Shown: in pieces, positions 2,508-24,402 of the stretch
How the letters are laid out: each line of letters begins with the position of its first letter
Numbering within the stretch: the first letter of the stretch is position 1
Source: an uncultured Lachnospiraceae bacterium
GTDB lineage: Bacteria; Bacillota; Clostridia; Lachnospirales; Lachnospiraceae
Assembly (NCBI GenBank): GCA_947173495.1
Contig: CAMWFQ010000008.1
Coordinates: 62,001-126,000 of the forward strand
Direction: 5' to 3'
Length of the DNA stretch: 64,000 nt
Notes under the pieces: model-generated
Told to the model about the DNA's origin: nothing
Database searches by the model: none
What the model saw: the letters and a program-made list of their open reading frames with translations, nothing else
Translations under genes and position numbers: made by a program

Positions 2508-2513
2508 GACATT

Positions 2514-2548
2514 AAAGGAAGAACCGATAAGCAGTTCTTCCTTTTTTT
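2514..2548 (+). terminator. Rho-independent terminator after dnaJ
   Basis: An AAGGAAGAAC...GTTCTTCCTT stem with a 9-nt loop runs directly into seven T residues. It starts 7 bases after the dnaJ stop and closes the dnaK-dnaJ transcript. Confidence 0.93.
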
Positions 2549-2550
2549 GA

Positions 2551-2647
2551 TGCGCAGGGGTGTGTATGGAAAATTGCTGCTATGCAGCACACACCCCGCG
2601 CGGCGAGTAGGGGAAGATAAACCTTCCCTACTCGATTTTCGCTGCGC
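2551..2647 (+). repeat. Dispersed two-hairpin repeat, copy A
   Basis: The first hairpin pairs GGGGTGTGT (2557-2565) with ACACACCCC (2589-2597) and has an inner GCTGC/GCAGC stem. After a GCGCGG-type linker comes a second hairpin, CGAGTAGGGGAAG (2604-2616) with CTTCCCTACTCG (2623-2634), then the shared tail GATTTTCGC. The same architecture recurs near 3.5, 25.8-26.0 and 59.1 kb. This copy lies in the convergent gap between dnaJ and the next minus-strand gene. Confidence 0.8.
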
Positions 2648-2715
2648 GGGAAAATTCTTTTCCTGATCAATTATAAAGGCGGTTATAGAAAAAGACCCGC
2701 CTGCATACACTGGTA

Positions 2716-3324
2716 TTACGGGAGCATCTCCTCCAGAGTGGAAACAATGTGGTCCGAGAGGCGTGTGTTCAGATTCCGGGCTATGGGAATCAGATCCGCA
2801 ATCCGCCCGGACATGCCTTCCTGCTGATAAATCGTGGCCAGCAGCTTATAGGTGGCACTGATATCGCTCCGGGTTTCTACGGCGAATTCCAGAACCTGAC
2901 GTGCCGGTTCTGTCTGGCTATGATCATACAGGATTTTTGCCCAGCTCTGAAGAGTGAGAACAAGGGTTGTGTAATTCTGATCATACCGGGACAGGCAGTC
3001 AATGTTTGGAGCGCCGTACATCAGTTTCAGATCGGTATTGCTGATGCCGGTAAAATTAACGATGGGAGACTGAGAAAGCATCCGCAGGGTTTCATGATAC
3101 TCGGCGACAGAGGGATGATCGGCCATAACATCCATAGGGAGCGTATCAAAGGGGATTTGGATATAATCAAGGTCATCAAGTGATTTGCGGCGTGTGCTGT
3201 TGGCCAGTGCCTCTCTCTCCCAGAAGCTCTTATTGGTCTTTGCTTCCCTGTTCCGGCTTTTGTGGAGTTCATATCCCAGCCAGATGCAGAAGACGATAAA
3301 ACTTGCAAAAAAAGGGAATCTCAT
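2716..3324 (-). CDS. Membrane-anchored TPR-like protein of unknown function
   Basis: I do not recognise a named family. The 202-residue product begins with a hydrophobic segment (about residues 5-18) followed at once by a basic stretch, which suggests one N-terminal membrane anchor with the rest cytoplasmic. Residues 110-200 are helical and contain paired helices resembling tetratricopeptide repeats (VLTLQSWAKILYDHSQTEPARQVLEFAVE, then ISATYKLLATIYQQEG). It is a single gene convergent with dnaJ, with the copy A repeat between them. A role as a scaffold is possible but nothing in the neighbourhood defines one. Confidence 0.75.
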   Translation of the reverse strand: MRFPFFASFIVFCIWLGYELHKSRNREAKTNKSFWEREALANSTRRKSLDDLDYIQIPFDTLPMDVMADHPSVAEYHETLRMLSQSPIVNFTGISNTDLKLMYGAPNIDCLSRYDQNYTTLVLTLQSWAKILYDHSQTEPARQVLEFAVETRSDISATYKLLATIYQQEGMSGRIADLIPIARNLNTRLSDHIVSTLEEMLP

Positions 3325-3365
3325 TTATAATATCCTTTCAAAGAGGTTTATTTTGGAGGTACAAA

Positions 3366-3473
3366 ATGTTTAATTTTTATCATAAAAAAAGCAGAAAAAC
3401 AATATCGGCGGTCATCATAGTCTTACTCATTCTGGCTATGATAATTCCAACTATAGCATCTTTTATGTACTAA
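3366..3473 (+). CDS. 35-residue single-pass membrane peptide (Prli42-like size and layout)
   Basis: A short frame starts at ATG 3366, 7 bases after TTTGGAGG, a convincing ribosome binding site. The product MFNFYHKKSRKTISAVIIVL continues as one hydrophobic helix ending IPTIASFMY. A basic N-terminus of about 11 residues followed by a single membrane segment and almost no tail is the layout of Prli42, the tiny membrane anchor of the stressosome in Listeria and Bacillus. The resemblance is in length, charge and hydrophobicity, not in proven sequence identity, so function is left open. It is divergent from the TPR-like gene. Confidence 0.6.
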   Translation: MFNFYHKKSRKTISAVIIVLLILAMIIPTIASFMY

Positions 3474-18281: not shown

Positions 18282-19964
18282 ATGGCGTTTGTTCACCTGC
18301 ATGTCCATACAGAATACAGTTTGCTGGATGGATCCAATAAAATAACAGAATATGTCAAACGGGTGAAACAGCTGGGGATGGACAGCGCCGCCATCACGGA
18401 CCACGGTGTTATGTACGGCGTGATCGATTTTTATAAGGCGTGTAAGGCAGAGGGGGTCAAACCTATATTGGGCTGTGAGATCTATGTGGCGCCCAATTCC
18501 AGATTTGATAAGGAACTGACGGGTGGAGAAGACAGATATTATCATCTGGTTCTGCTTGCAGAGAACAATACAGGGTATGATAACCTGATGAAAATTGTCA
18601 GCCGTGGTTTTACAGAAGGGTATTATTATAAGCCCCGGGTGGACATGGAGATCCTGAATCAGTTCCATGAAGGGATCATTGCGCTCTCAGCCTGTCTGGC
18701 CGGGGAGGTGCAGCGGTATATTCAGAAAGGGCTGATAGAAGAGGCCAAAAAGGCGGCTCTGAAATACCGGGACTGCTTCGGAGAAGAAAACTTTTTCCTG
18801 GAGCTGCAGGACCATGGACTTCCCGAGCAGAGAATGGTGAACACCACACTTCTGCAGATGAGCAGAGAGCTGAATATTCCTCTGGTGGTCACCAATGACG
18901 TACATTACACTTATGCTGAAGATGAAAAGCCGCATGATATCCTGCTCTGTATACAGACGGGTAAAAAGCTTTCGGATGAAGACCGGATGCGCTATGTGGG
19001 AGGGCAGTACTATGTGAAAAGCGAGGAGGAGATGAAGGGTCTTTTTCCTTACGCATGGGAGGCTGTGGAAAACACCCAGCGGATTGCGGACAGATGTCAT
19101 GTGGAAATTGAATTCGGCGTGATCAAACTCCCGCATTTTGAAGTGCCTCAGGGGTATGATTCATGGACGTACTTAAACAGGCTCTGTTATGAAGGGCTGA
19201 AAGAGCGGTACGGGGAAGATGAGAATGCGCCGGCGGGAGATACCGGGCAGACATTAAAAGAGCGGTTGGACTATGAGCTGGATGTGATCCGGACCATGGG
19301 ATATGTGGATTATTTTCTGATTGTGTGGGATTTTATCAATTATGCCAAATCCAATCAGATCATGGTGGGGCCGGGAAGAGGATCGGCGGCGGGAAGCATT
19401 GTGGCTTATGTGCTGAAGATCACCAATATAGATCCTATCAAATATAACCTCCTGTTTGAACGGTTCCTGAACCCGGAGCGTATCTCCATGCCGGATATTG
19501 ATATTGACTTCTGCTTTGAAAGACGTCAGGAGGTCATTGATTATGTGAGCCGGAAGTACGGACCGGAAAAGGTGGTGCAGATCGTCACATTCGGAACGCT
19601 GGCGGCGAAAGGAGTCATACGGGATGTGGGCAGGGTTATGGATCTGCCATATGCCTATGTGGATTCGCTGGCCAAGATGATACCAAGAATTCCCAATGAG
19701 CTGAACATCACCATAGACAGAGCGCTTCAGGTCAATCCGGAGCTGCGCAATATGTATGAGACAGATGCGCAGGTGAAAGAGCTGATCGATATGAGCAAGT
19801 GCCTGGAGGGACTTCCAAGACATGCGTCCATGCATGCAGCAGGAGTCGTAATCTGTTCGAGACCGGCGGAAGAACTGGTGCCGCTCTCGAGAGGAGCCGA
19901 TGGCTCTGTCACCACCCAGTTTACGATGACCACCATCGAGGAACTGGGACTTCTTAAAATGGAT
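18282..19964 (+). CDS. dnaE: DNA polymerase III alpha subunit DnaE, exon 1
   Basis: This exon encodes residues 1-561 of the replicative polymerase: the PHP domain (VHLHVHTEYSLLDGS) and most of the palm, with catalytic Asp405 and Asp407 in MPDIDIDF. It ends with codon 561, GAT, the third catalytic aspartate in GLLKMD. The frame then runs into GTGCG, a group II intron 5' end, and would stop at 20048 after 27 foreign residues. The protein continues at 22585 with FLGLRTLTVLRDAV, exactly as in uninterrupted DnaE proteins. ATG 18282 follows AAAGGAGGTGTCTC. Production of the polymerase depends on splicing of the intervening RNA. Confidence 0.93.
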
Positions 19965-20745
19965 GTGCGAATTGTTCGCCGGCGAAACACTCCGGAAACG
20001 GAAACAATCCGGCGGAGCAGGCAGATGCGGTACCGCAGGCCTGCTTAACTGTCAGTTCGATCAGACAGGTGAAATCCCTGTTGCGGAGTAAATGTCGATA
20101 CTCCACCCCCTGATACTCCGACATGCGTTCTGCTCTTAACGGCAGAGGGTATGAAGCTCGGTGAAGGCGGCCCAAAAGAAGCCTAAGTGGATGAAATATA
20201 TAAGTAGGATTGGTACAAAAGTGGTCAGAACCCGCCTGTCTGAACGTATAAAGTAAAAAATACGGCGACGAAGTAGGCCGGGGGTCCTGTGAAAGATAAT
20301 ATGCTTACTTACCGGGAACCGCTGTTTGAAAAGCTCGTGATTAAGACTCCGGCGAAAGCCGGATGACAGGTTTGGCCGCGGCGGCGTTACTGTCCATTGA
20401 TGCCGCTGTCTCTGCCGCTGAGACGGTACCGGGCCTTATTCCATTCGACAAGGGGAGAAAGGCCGGCTGACGGGTTAAAGGCGGAAGCTAAGTTATCATA
20501 ATAAAAGGATAGAACGGACGGAACAATTGAACCTTAAAGGGAAATGACAAGGCAGTTAGGGGCCGATGTTCCCAGCAGAGTAGGAAATGACCTGCGGATT
20601 TAAGGGGCAGCAGCCCGTAGTACCGTTGAAAGCGGCTATAAACCGCCGGAGGGAAGGGGCATAGTTGTAAACGGAATATTGTAAGAGCAGTTTAATCGTC
20701 AGGGCTGAGCCTGACGAAAGGATGGATCGTCGCGGAGGTGATGCA

Positions 20746-22455
20746 ATGAGGATTAAGCTTAATAAGATTCCAGCAGACAAGAAGGAACTTGACCAACTCT
20801 TACAGGACATTTATATAACGGCAAAAAAGAATTATGAAAATCAGATACAGAGCAATTTTACAGGCATTCTGGAGGTGATCGCCTCCACTCCCAACATTAT
20901 GGAAGCGATCCGGAGGGCAGGAGAAAACCGTAGAATCAATGAGCCTTTTAAGAAAAACCATGATGAAGTGACAGAGATCGTGAGGACCAGGCTTTATGAT
21001 TACCATCCGGAAAAGATGCAGGAGGTCTGGATTCCTGAAGCGGGAAGGATGGAAAGCCGTCCTGCGGCAGGCATAACAGCGACTGACCAGATCATACGTG
21101 AGTGCATAAAAGGGATTCTGGAGCCTGTGGCGGAGGCACAGTTTTCGGAGCATTCCTATGGAATGCGGCCTATGCGGTCTGCAGATATGGCAGTCGCACA
21201 GATCAGGCAAATGAGTCTTGAGGGAAAGTTCTGGGCGGTAAAGGGTGAAATTAAGGAATTATATGCTCATATTGACCATAATGTCATGATCAGCAGTTTA
21301 TGGGGCATCGGCATTCGGGATAAACGGGTTCTCAGCATTATGAAGCAGATGCTGAAAACAGGAATTCTGAAAGAGAGAAGGCATCACATGCCGGGGGCCT
21401 TTCAGACGGATATTGCGATGCTGCTGGCCAATATTTACCTGACCCGGTTTGATGGACATTTCAGAGAGTTCAGCTATGTCCGGTATGCCGGTCAGTGGGT
21501 GATTCTGACAGAAAGCGCGGAAGAAGCGGAAAGGATCCGGCGGAAAGCAAAGAGGTGTCTGTGCGACGACTTACATCTGCAGTTGACAGAGGAAAACATA
21601 CAGATTACAGATATGCGCAGGCAGGTTCTTAAGTTCTTAAAACTTGAGATTGCAATGGGAAGGAAAAACGGGCAGTGGCTCTGTCGGATAATGCCTGAAA
21701 AGGAGGAGCTGCGCCGGCAGATCAGAAAACTGGCCTGTGAAGTATTTCGCGTGGGAAAAACCTGCGGTGATGATGAGGAGAGACTGATTCTGAACATTGT
21801 TATGGCAAATATCATGCTGACAAAGTTTATGAACGATTACAGCATGTGCGAGAAGGGAAGCGCCGCCTGCCGGAGCGATATATGGATGCTGCGGTGCACG
21901 GCATACAGAACGCTCAGAAACCATGGAGGGCGCTGGATACGGGCACAGGAAAGCGCCAATCTGATGGGGCTGCATCATGCCCGCAGAACCTGTATATCTG
22001 CAGTGAAATATAAAGGAATGTATATCGGGATCACAGATATCGCCTTTACCGGCTGGAGGGAGGCGGAATGCAAGGACCAGAGAGAAACACCTTACACGCC
22101 CGAGGGCCGGAAGCTTTATGATAAAAGAATGCAGAAAAGAGGACTGCGGGCGCTGGCAGATGAAGTGAACCTTTCCTCTCATGCGCTGGCAGTGGGAATG
22201 AGCGGAAATCCGCTGTATGATATGGAGTATTTTATGAACAGAGCCTGTGCATATAAGAGGGACAGAGGACGGTGCAGGATCTGCGGCGGTTATGTGAGAC
22301 CCGAGGAGGCAAGAATACTTCATGTGGACAGACAGCTTTCTGCGGACCGGATAAATAAGACGGAAAACCTCATTACAGTCCACAGATGTTGCCGCAAACT
22401 GATTCATAGTAATTCAGAGCCAAAAGAAGTGTCAGATAAAAGAATTACAGATTAA
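20746..22455 (+). CDS. Group II intron-encoded maturase-like protein with degenerate reverse transcriptase and HNH
   Basis: This 569-residue protein is colinear with LtrA-type intron proteins (RT, maturase X domain, HNH) but its catalytic residues are replaced. The first RT aspartate, usually GDIKGFFDNIDH, is Glu168 (VKGEIKELYAHIDH). The PQGG loop is AFQTD (218-222), yet LLANIYLTRFD follows normally. YADD is YAGQ (247-250). In the C-terminal HNH, the Cys pair CRIC (510-513) remains, but the HHI histidines read HVD (526-528) and CxxCH reads HRCCR. The frame is intact with no stops. ATG 20746 is used because GCGGAGGTG precedes it by 5 bases. Maturase help in splicing is the likely retained role; reverse transcription should be impossible. 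Confidence 0.9.
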   Translation: MRIKLNKIPADKKELDQLLQDIYITAKKNYENQIQSNFTGILEVIASTPNIMEAIRRAGENRRINEPFKKNHDEVTEIVRTRLYDYHPEKMQEVWIPEAGRMESRPAAGITATDQIIRECIKGILEPVAEAQFSEHSYGMRPMRSADMAVAQIRQMSLEGKFWAVKGEIKELYAHIDHNVMISSLWGIGIRDKRVLSIMKQMLKTGILKERRHHMPGAFQTDIAMLLANIYLTRFDGHFREFSYVRYAGQWVILTESAEEAERIRRKAKRCLCDDLHLQLTEENIQITDMRRQVLKFLKLEIAMGRKNGQWLCRIMPEKEELRRQIRKLACEVFRVGKTCGDDEERLILNIVMANIMLTKFMNDYSMCEKGSAACRSDIWMLRCTAYRTLRNHGGRWIRAQESANLMGLHHARRTCISAVKYKGMYIGITDIAFTGWREAECKDQRETPYTPEGRKLYDKRMQKRGLRALADEVNLSSHALAVGMSGNPLYDMEYFMNRACAYKRDRGRCRICGGYVRPEEARILHVDRQLSADRINKTENLITVHRCCRKLIHSNSEPKEVSDKRITD

Positions 22456-22491
22456 ACTGTTCTGACAATATTCCGGGTGTTTACAATGGAA

Positions 22492-22525
22492 CGCCGTGTG
22501 CGGTGAAAGCCGCATGCACGGTGTG
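22492..22525 (+). ncRNA. Group II intron domain V
   Basis: The catalytic core hairpin folds as GCCGTG with CACGGT, then TGCGGT with GCCGCA closed by a GAAA tetraloop (22505-22508). A 2-nt bulge TG lies at 22515-22516. The catalytic triad at the base reads CGC. Domain VI follows to the 3' splice site at 22584; I do not assign the branch adenosine. Confidence 0.85.
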
Positions 22526-22584
22526 AAGTGGGGGAAAACCTTCCTGACCGGGCAAAGCCGCAGGAGAGGGTTACCTATCACTAT

Positions 22585-24402
22585 TTTCTTGGACTGCGCA
22601 CGCTTACCGTGCTTCGGGATGCGGTGGCGCTGGTCGAAAAAGATAAAGGAGTTTCTATTGATCTTGATCATATAGATTTTGATGATAAAAAAGTACTTGC
22701 TTCTATCGGAACCGGGCGGACCGATGGGATATTTCAGCTGGAAAGCGGCGGTATGAAAAGCTTTATGAAGGAGCTGAAGCCGGAGAATCTGGAAGATATT
22801 ATTGCCGGGATCGCGCTCTACCGCCCCGGCCCCATGGATTTTATACCCAAGTATATCAGGGGGAAGAACCAGTCGGGAGCGACCACCTACTCCTGCCCTC
22901 AGCTGGAGCCTATTTTGTCGGCCACCTATGGCTGTATTGTTTACCAGGAGCAGGTGATGCAGATTGTCCGGGATCTGGGGGGATACAGCCTGGGGAGGAG
23001 CGATCTGGTACGACGGGCAATGAGTAAGAAAAAGCAGTCTGTGATGGTGAAGGAGAGAGCCAATTTTATATACGGAAATGAAAAGGAAGGAGTGCCGGGA
23101 TGCGTGGCCAACGGCATTCCCGAGGAAACAGCCTCTCAGATTTATGATGACATGATGGACTTTGCCAAATATGCCTTTAATAAATCTCATGCAGCCTGTT
23201 ATGCGGTAGTGGCTTATCAGACAGCTTACCTGAAATATTATTATCCGGTGGAGTTCATGGCGGCGCTTATGACTTCCGTGATTGATAATCCCAGAAAGGT
23301 GGCGGAATATATTGTGGTCTGCCGGAATATGGGAATCACCATTCTTCCTCCGGATATTAATCAGGGAGAGCGAAACTTTTCCGTGGATCAGAACGCTATC
23401 CGCTATGCCCTGACAGCCATTAAGAGTGTGGGGCGTCCGGTGATCGACGCGGTGGTGGAGGAGAGAGCGGCAAGAGGGCCTTATACCAATCTGAAAGATT
23501 TTATTACCCGTATGGCGGATAAAGATATTAATAAAAAGACCATTGAGAATTTCATCAAGGCAGGCGCTTTCGACAGCCTTCCGGGTACCCGAAAGCAGTT
23601 TATGAGCGCTTATGTGCAGATCATGGAAAGCATTATCCATGATAAGAAAAATAATATGGCAGGACAGATCAGCCTGTTTGATATCGTGGATGAGGATCAG
23701 AAGGAGGAATACGACGTCAGACTTCCGGATGTGGGAGAATATTCAAAAGAGATGATGCTTTCTTTTGAAAAAGAAGTCCTGGGAATTTACGTCAGCGGAC
23801 ATCCACTGGAGGAATGGGAGGAGCTGTGGAGAAAGGGGATCACCAATACCACAGCGGACTTTCTGCTGGACGAAGAGGGCGGCGAGCCTGCGGTGAAGGA
23901 TAATGCCACGGCGGTGATCGGAGGAATGATCGCGGATAAGCGGATCAAATACACCAAAAATGACAAGATCATGGCATTTCTCCAGGTAGAGGATCTTCTG
24001 GGGAGCGTGGAAGTGGTGGTTTTCCCCAGGGATTATGAGAAAAACAGCGCCAGACTGACGGAGGATAATAAAATTTTTGTCAGGGGCAGGGTATCTCTGG
24101 AGGAAGATAAGGATGGCAAGCTGATCTGTGAAAGAATCACTTCCTTTGATGAAATTCCCAGAAAGCTCTGGATTAAATTCAGGGAAAAAGAAGACTACGA
24201 AAAGTCAGCGGAGGAGCTTTTGGGGATGCTTGCGGATTCCGATGGAAATGACAGTGTCGTTATTTATATCGAAAACCAGAAGATGATGAAGCGGCTTCCT
24301 CCCAATCGGAATGTATGCGCAGATGAAGAGCTGTCCGGAAAGCTCAGCGAGCGGTTCGGAGCCGAAAATATAAAAATTGTCTGGGACGTGAAAAAAGATT
24401 GA
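22585..24402 (+). CDS. dnaE: DNA polymerase III alpha subunit DnaE, exon 2
   Basis: This exon encodes residues 562-1166: the rest of the palm and fingers (FLGLRTLTVLRDAV, FQLESGGMKSFMKELKPENLED, RPGPMDFIPKYI) and the tandem helix-hairpin-helix region. An OB-fold follows (VIGGMIADKRIKYTKNDKIMAFLQVEDLLGSVEVVVFP), then the C-terminal tail. With exon 1 the spliced protein is 1166 residues, a normal DnaE length. The open frame extends upstream into the intron to 22528, but that part is ribozyme sequence. No ribosome binding site precedes exon 2, so it is not expected to be translated alone. pfkA follows 56 bp downstream. Confidence 0.93.
   Translation, partial: FLGLRTLTVLRDAVALVEKDKGVSIDLDHIDFDDKKVLASIGTGRTDGIFQLESGGMKSFMKELKPENLEDIIAGIALYRPGPMDFIPKYIRGKNQSGATTYSCPQLEPILSATYGCIVYQEQVMQIVRDLGGYSLGRSDLVRRAMSKKKQSVMVKERANFIYGNEKEGVPGCVANGIPEETASQIYDDMMDFAKYAFNKSHAACYAVVAYQTAYLKYYYPVEFMAALMTSVIDNPRKVAEYIVVCRNMGITILPPDINQGERNFSVDQNAIRYALTAIKSVGRPVIDAVVEERAARGPYTNLKDFITRMADKDINKKTIENFIKAGAFDSLPGTRKQFMSAYVQIMESIIHDKKNNMAGQISLFDIVDEDQKEEYDVRLPDVGEYSKEMMLSFEKEVLGIYVSGHPLEEWEELWRKGITNTTADFLLDEEGGEPAVKDNATAVIGGMIADKRIKYTKNDKIMAFLQVEDLLGSVEVVVFPRDYEKNSARLTEDNKIFVRGRVSLEEDKDGKLICERITSFDEIPRKLWIKFREKEDYEKSAEELLGMLADSDGNDSVVIYIENQKMMKRLPPNRNVCADEELSGKLSERFGAENIKIVWDVKKD

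Follow-up and report, generated by a model that had tools for sequence, protein, structure and literature searches.

A degenerate intron-encoded protein in the dnaE gene of a Lachnospiraceae bacterium: a candidate splicing-only maturase

Our analysis indicates that the dnaE gene of an uncultured Lachnospiraceae bacterium carries a group II intron whose encoded protein (IEP) has lost the catalytic residues of its reverse transcriptase (RT) and has kept an open reading frame. Comparison with relatives makes it probable that this protein is an immobile, splicing-only maturase, which would have lost its mobility functions, would still be translated and would help its own intron leave dnaE. The reading is supported by the lost catalytic residues, the open frame, the kept ribozyme, the single conserved dnaE and an intact sister intron at the same site in another genome. 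Against it stand a thumb (domain X) that is not preferentially conserved, a C-terminus 9 residues short, changes at conserved sites that are harsher than in most working proteins, and the occurrence of the altered form in one sequence only.

The interrupted dnaE gene and its intron RNA

The window is the whole stretch of DNA analysed, 64,000 nucleotides in length, and all of its features given here lie on the + strand. The intron (2,620 nt, 19965..22584) was delimited by Rfam matches inside it and by a junction identical in two relatives, contig L032 and the dnaE of genome G853 (L038). It begins with GTGCG and ends with CTATCACTAT, a 3' end common to both of these relatives, and it is inserted between the Asp and Phe codons of KMD/FLGLR in DnaE. 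Exon 1 (18282..19964, DnaE residues 1-561) and exon 2 (22585..24402) were defined by their ORFs, by spliced translation and by comparison with congeners, in which the gene is uninterrupted. When joined, they give an open DnaE of 1166 amino acids.

The interrupted copy is the sole dnaE found in the genome. The genome holds this DnaE and one other C-family polymerase (a 1,540-aa frame with a split match), which we take to be PolC-like; DnaE is essential in Bacillus. A dnaE match was found in 34 of 37 genomes of the genus, in one piece in 33 of them and split only in the window's genome. In a tree of 31 sequences, including 30 of the 33 congeners with an uninterrupted gene, the window's dnaE is nested among intron-free congeners (support on the path 31-87%), and its tip measures 0.61 substitutions per four-fold site (107 sites), or 0.76 in a tree of fewer congeners. 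The six congeners nearest at four-fold sites have 88-92% of DnaE residues in common with it despite differing at 49-51% of those sites, and DnaE is thus under strong selection. Since dnaE is conserved here and no intron interrupts it in any of the 33 congeners in which it was detected, the intron must be spliced out of dnaE in this bacterium.

The ribozyme is well preserved. Its 5' part matches Rfam RF02004 (group-II-D1D4-5; 20044..20292; 49.1 bits, cut-off 34.5), and domains V and VI match RF00029 (22489..22584; 54.8 bits, cut-off 40). Domain V is intact, with a CGC triad common to this intron, L032 and L059 (the triad and the branch-point A were assigned by eye). A likely EBS1, GTCCATT (20392..20398), was assigned by complementarity and is an identical heptamer in the sister intron of G853; it pairs with AATGGAT at the end of exon 1, the last pair being U.G. 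The features by which a group II intron is recognised are therefore present, namely a domain V/VI core, domain I, a 5' GUGYG, a conserved 3' end and a candidate EBS1-IBS1 pairing. A consensus structure with 112 pairs was derived for the sister together with eight plasmid-borne relatives, the window's intron being left out. Of the 110 pairs present in the sister, the window's intron forms 104 and breaks 6; among the 104, 61 are unchanged, 11 have one side changed and 32 have both. A control in which the partner was slid gave 38-49% paired. The result was robust to the doubtful 5' end of relative L068, with 88/93 pairs formed when that end was corrected and 124/129 when L068 was dropped. Among 63 pairs with a clear ancestral state, 45 are unchanged, 15 are changed yet paired and 3 are broken. 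In the domain V triad region the sister has AGC (L038:6548-6553), compared with CGC in the window (22491-22496), L032 and L059, and by eye the partner strand of this AGC is also changed.

A maturase acting in trans on this intron is unlikely, because the genome yielded a single match to group II domain V when 150 of 372 first-look candidates were scored, and the sole other RT match is not a group II maturase. In that match the RT forms a fusion with an archaeo-eukaryotic primase domain of the TOTE type (AEP-TOTE), adjoining cas1 (L002:1-2214 and 2513-3430, in G000:C5:210751-214251, - strand). Genome G036 has a similar match with the same 935-aa open frame, and the fusion in the window's genome is likely a CRISPR adaptation RT.

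Lost motifs and the open reading frame

The IEP spans 569 codons (20746..22455) and is preceded, four bases 5' of its ATG, by the ribosome binding site GGAGGTGA (20734..20741), which is also found in the sister intron; the open frame and strong binding site reported in the first-pass annotation of this DNA are thus real. The same annotation described three altered RT signatures, and alignments with the sister and with relatives bear this out. The catalytic Asp of motif A is Glu at residue 168 (21247..21249), PQGG has become FQTD (21400..21411) and YADD has become YAGQ at residues 247-250 (21484..21495), so that the catalytic Asp triad is absent (E168, G249, Q250). Further, RPLGIP reads RPAAGI and most of the NKGSxTxGxDG block is deleted. 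The 26 relatives of the RT reference set all have YADD, and 24 have PQGG and two PQGS (L046 and L052 were left out for an in-frame stop and L057 as partial; L100 was also left out). These relatives are invariant at 45 RT residues, of which the window protein keeps 24, substitutes 19 and deletes 2. When six of the 26 were each left out in turn, every one retained all, or all but two, of such invariants. From the invariants of 14 closer relatives it keeps 40/68 in the RT, 3/5 in X, 7/9 in D and 3/4 in HNH.

The HNH domain presents a milder case. The first His of HHV is Leu at residue 525 (22318..22320), where all 14 close relatives have His. The His of CH is Arg at residue 550 (22393..22395), where 12 of the 14 have His and two have Asn or Phe. 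The window protein retains the second His of HHV as well as the Cys of CRIC and HRCC, and the HNH Cys pairs are present. The earlier claim that the HNH histidines had been replaced therefore stands for residues 525 and 550, with less weight than the RT claim. Judged from the altered residues, second-strand cleavage has very probably been lost along with reverse transcription. The sister protein aligns with the window protein in one frame from end to end, with four internal deletions in the latter (10, 1, 1 and 29 residues, the last at 21453..21454, before YAGQ) and a C-terminus that is 9 residues shorter and may reflect a late stop. The variation at residue 550 among relatives and this short C-terminus slightly lower our confidence in a splicing-only maturase.

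The protein is still recognizable as a member of its family. It scores 148.6 bits (E 2.5e-43) against TIGR04416, the NCBIfam model for group II RT/maturases, which is below the curated cut-off of 300, and 37.7 bits against Pfam RVT_1, which passes the gathering threshold of 29.6 (the sister scores 127.9). An AlphaFold model (pLDDT 76.6, pTM 0.70), whose input alignment consisted of YADD-type relatives, had group II RTs as its Foldseek matches. As a prediction, this means that the sequence is compatible with the fold and nothing more.

The other two + frames of the same DNA contain 31 and 38 stops. It had been argued in the annotation that random decay should bring stops, and our simulations agree: neutral change of 40-46% of codons, starting from either the sister or the window protein, produced a mean of 12-17. 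In the window protein, 19 of the 43 undeleted RT invariants are substituted (44%) and there are zero internal stops. Free decay is unlikely on this count, and neutral change does not readily account for the open frame. These numbers bear directly on the possibility that the IEP is a decaying relic, its ribozyme splicing alone or with host RNA-binding proteins and its frame open for lack of time. A relic would agree with the fast evolution of the protein in most domains, thumb included (X tip 1.05, compared with 0.19 in the sister), with a ribozyme so well preserved that self-splicing is conceivable, and with the presence of the altered form in one genome and its short C-terminus. The missing stops, the kept ribosome binding site and substitutions that are milder than neutral nevertheless make a relic improbable.

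The chemistry of the substitutions was compared by mean BLOSUM62 score. Differences between the window protein and the sister average -0.06, within the range of four YADD-type pairs (-0.03 to -0.15) and above neutral expectation (-0.51 to -0.62). On the window protein's branch alone, 90 of 233 conserved sites have changed, compared with 21-64 on 13 other tips; substitutions on this branch average +0.03, compared with -0.48 to -0.70 in neutral simulations, and the conserved-site changes are harsher than in 11 of the 13 working tips. This test is weaker than the stop count because some of the changes perhaps date from a time when the IEP was active. An ordinary dN/dS is not given since the two proteins differ at 71 of 94 four-fold sites and dS is saturated.

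The number of changes also raises the question of assembly or base-calling errors, or of a chimeric contig, in a draft genome of 52 contigs with a contamination estimate of 4.35%. Such artefacts are highly improbable, given 90 conserved-site changes without a frameshift, paired changes in the intron RNA, dnaE flanks that group with congeners and a GC3 in the IEP (0.543) like that of dnaE (0.576 and 0.555).

The first-pass annotation had proposed a splicing-only maturase that lost its mobility functions. The absent catalytic residues, the single conserved dnaE and the intact ribozyme support that proposal, except that the losses are not confined to RT and HNH; this narrower version was rejected, as thumb X has changed as much as the palm. 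Among sites of known ancestral state, changes were counted at 58/143 in RT, 12/25 in thumb X, 9/35 in D and 7/18 in HNH (RT compared with X+D+En, p = 0.56, a test of low power with few sites outside RT). Branch lengths on a fixed topology (window tip/sister tip) are 1.01/0.05 for RT, 1.05/0.19 for X, 0.38/0.39 for D and 1.14/0.00 for HNH, which places RT and En above D, but X equally high; the domains are short. The thumb X motif GLMNYY has lost its invariant G and Y. By sequence comparison, relaxation appears to be broad, and thumb X does not appear to be specially preserved.

Two further explanations were weighed. The frame may be open for translation itself (for example, to shield a long intron from transcription termination before exon 2) and not for the function of its protein; an open frame and a strong ribosome binding site would suffice for this, and the protein sequence does drift fast. 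It predicts chemically neutral substitutions, however, and those observed are as mild as between two working enzymes; nor is D accelerated (0.38 compared with 0.39). We therefore consider this very unlikely. A different possibility is that the protein has been repurposed, for instance for DNA or RNA binding by its retained D domain or for regulation of dnaE. Its least-changed stretch does lie in D (1 of 16 sites changed, sister residues 463-510), a segment chosen post hoc among 12 and followed by a D stretch with 8 of 19 changed, and the protein may retain residual DNA binding. However, the IEP is still surrounded by a conserved ribozyme, the gene around it depends on splicing, and no second copy of the IEP was found in the genome, so that repurposing seems quite unlikely. 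A splicing maturase could itself account for the kept D domain. In a group IIC intron, contacts of the maturase thumb and DBD to D6 are needed for branching (PMC10733145), and, by analogy with that intron, which is of another class than the window's, a role in branching could explain the kept domain without DNA targeting.

Relatives at the same dnaE site

The dnaE of G853, which came from a sample of 150 genomes in the family of the L032 genome, carries a full intron at the identical site. Its 621-aa IEP has YADD, PQGG, GDIKGFF, HHVD and CH and is 49% identical to the window protein. A second ORF of 196 aa with a lipoprotein-like start follows this IEP in the G853 intron (L038:5892-6482, +), and it had no Pfam match at E <= 0.001. 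The L032 contig, from a Eubacteriales MAG, encodes a C-terminal IEP fragment in which the HNH motif is present; after it come the same intron 3' end and dnaE exon 2. The L032 protein is 58% identical to the window protein in its best segment, and its RT part is not on the contig. A run of N (a scaffold gap) lies inside this third dnaE-site IEP at L032:300-309. The three introns are alike in insertion site and ribozyme type.

A scan of genome contigs for relatives of the protein gave one, L032, and no dnaE sequence was found in the flanks fetched for the remaining 25 relatives. No relative was found in the viral contigs scanned; the 3'-junction pattern occurred in 16 viral stretches, none of which then continued with a DnaE reading or was preceded by a domain V motif. 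The window protein and the sister group together with 100% support in a tree of 15 IEPs. Because the window protein groups with an intact same-site protein, its intron most likely descends from an active one at the dnaE site.

No sequence other than the window's was found to carry the altered form. No other YAGQ orthologue appeared at E <= 1e-60 in overlapping samples of the family (299 genomes), class (391) and phylum (333), and in the genus (37 genomes, E <= 0.001) 17 others had distant RT matches only, the best at 3.5e-30 with 36% over part of the protein. The annotation had suggested looking for orthologues with the same change at the same site and had named, as one of two findings that would refute its reading, an intact YADD protein at this site with no conservation of the altered form. 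G853 and these samples bring half of that finding. Taken together, the intact sister and the lack of a YAGQ orthologue in these samples point to a loss within this lineage, from an active ancestor, and not to a long-fixed maturase lineage.

Known systems and a possible route to host dependence

The annotation was right that immobile introns of this sort are rarely described in bacteria. Passages of a 2015 review (PMC4424553) call degenerated IEPs rare there and name one, O.i.I2 of Oceanobacillus iheyensis, in radC, whose frame is kept open and whose maturase activity is thought to be retained. By that published description, on which the comparison is based in place of sequences, O.i.I2 and the window's intron are both bacterial group II introns in a host gene of DNA maintenance, with an IEP that lacks YADD and other motifs and has no stops. 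They differ in that O.i.I2 belongs to the ML class and lies in radC, whereas the window's intron lies in dnaE with an HNH remnant and an intact same-site sister. The window protein is accordingly a further case of a very rare bacterial kind, with one precedent named in those passages.

A similar likeness holds for MatK of the chloroplast trnK intron and other organellar maturases, which have lost RT motifs, reside in introns of essential genes and act in splicing, the role that is proposed for the window protein. The loss of RT motifs with an open frame is thus common to O.i.I2, MatK and the window protein. In contrast, MatK clearly keeps domain X and binds several introns, according to passages of the same review (PMC4424553), whereas domain X is not conserved relative to RT in the window protein (X 12/25 compared with RT 58/143 changed, at low power) and its genome yielded one group II domain V. 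TeI4h of Thermosynechococcus is also a bacterial IEP with a broken YADD motif. It has YAGD, and with YADD in its place mobility rose from 2.5e-5% to 3.4% at 37 C; YAGD is the only departure named in the passages of that paper, where related introns are described as abundant in its genome (PMC2882425). A YAAA IEP was assayed in splicing, according to an excerpt of another report (PMC12590461). No report of the present case was found in open-licence literature on dnaE introns, degenerate maturases, radC and Lachnospiraceae, among the matches listed.

Based on these observations, we infer a role for the protein in splicing and a dependence of the host on it. The dnaE of this species would first have received a mobile intron whose IEP was active, most simply after the species split from the sampled congeners, since the site is empty in those congeners. 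The RT and the endonuclease would then have ceased to be under selection, while the ribozyme and the ability of the protein to fold and bind RNA would have remained so, because DnaE cannot be made without splicing. Whether a bacterial mobile intron has in this way become an obligate immobile splicing factor for a DNA polymerase gene, within the branch of one species (at most about 0.6 substitutions per four-fold dnaE site), is in our estimation an evenly balanced question.

If this is true, the domestication of a maturase, a process known chiefly in organelles, could be observed in an extant bacterium, while another bacterium still has an ancestor-like form at this site. It was by losing mobility while keeping splicing that selfish introns became host-dependent in organelles. 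A degenerate form, an intact form at the same site and 33 intron-free congeners would together make it testable which parts of an IEP splicing needs, and how far the host has come to depend on them.
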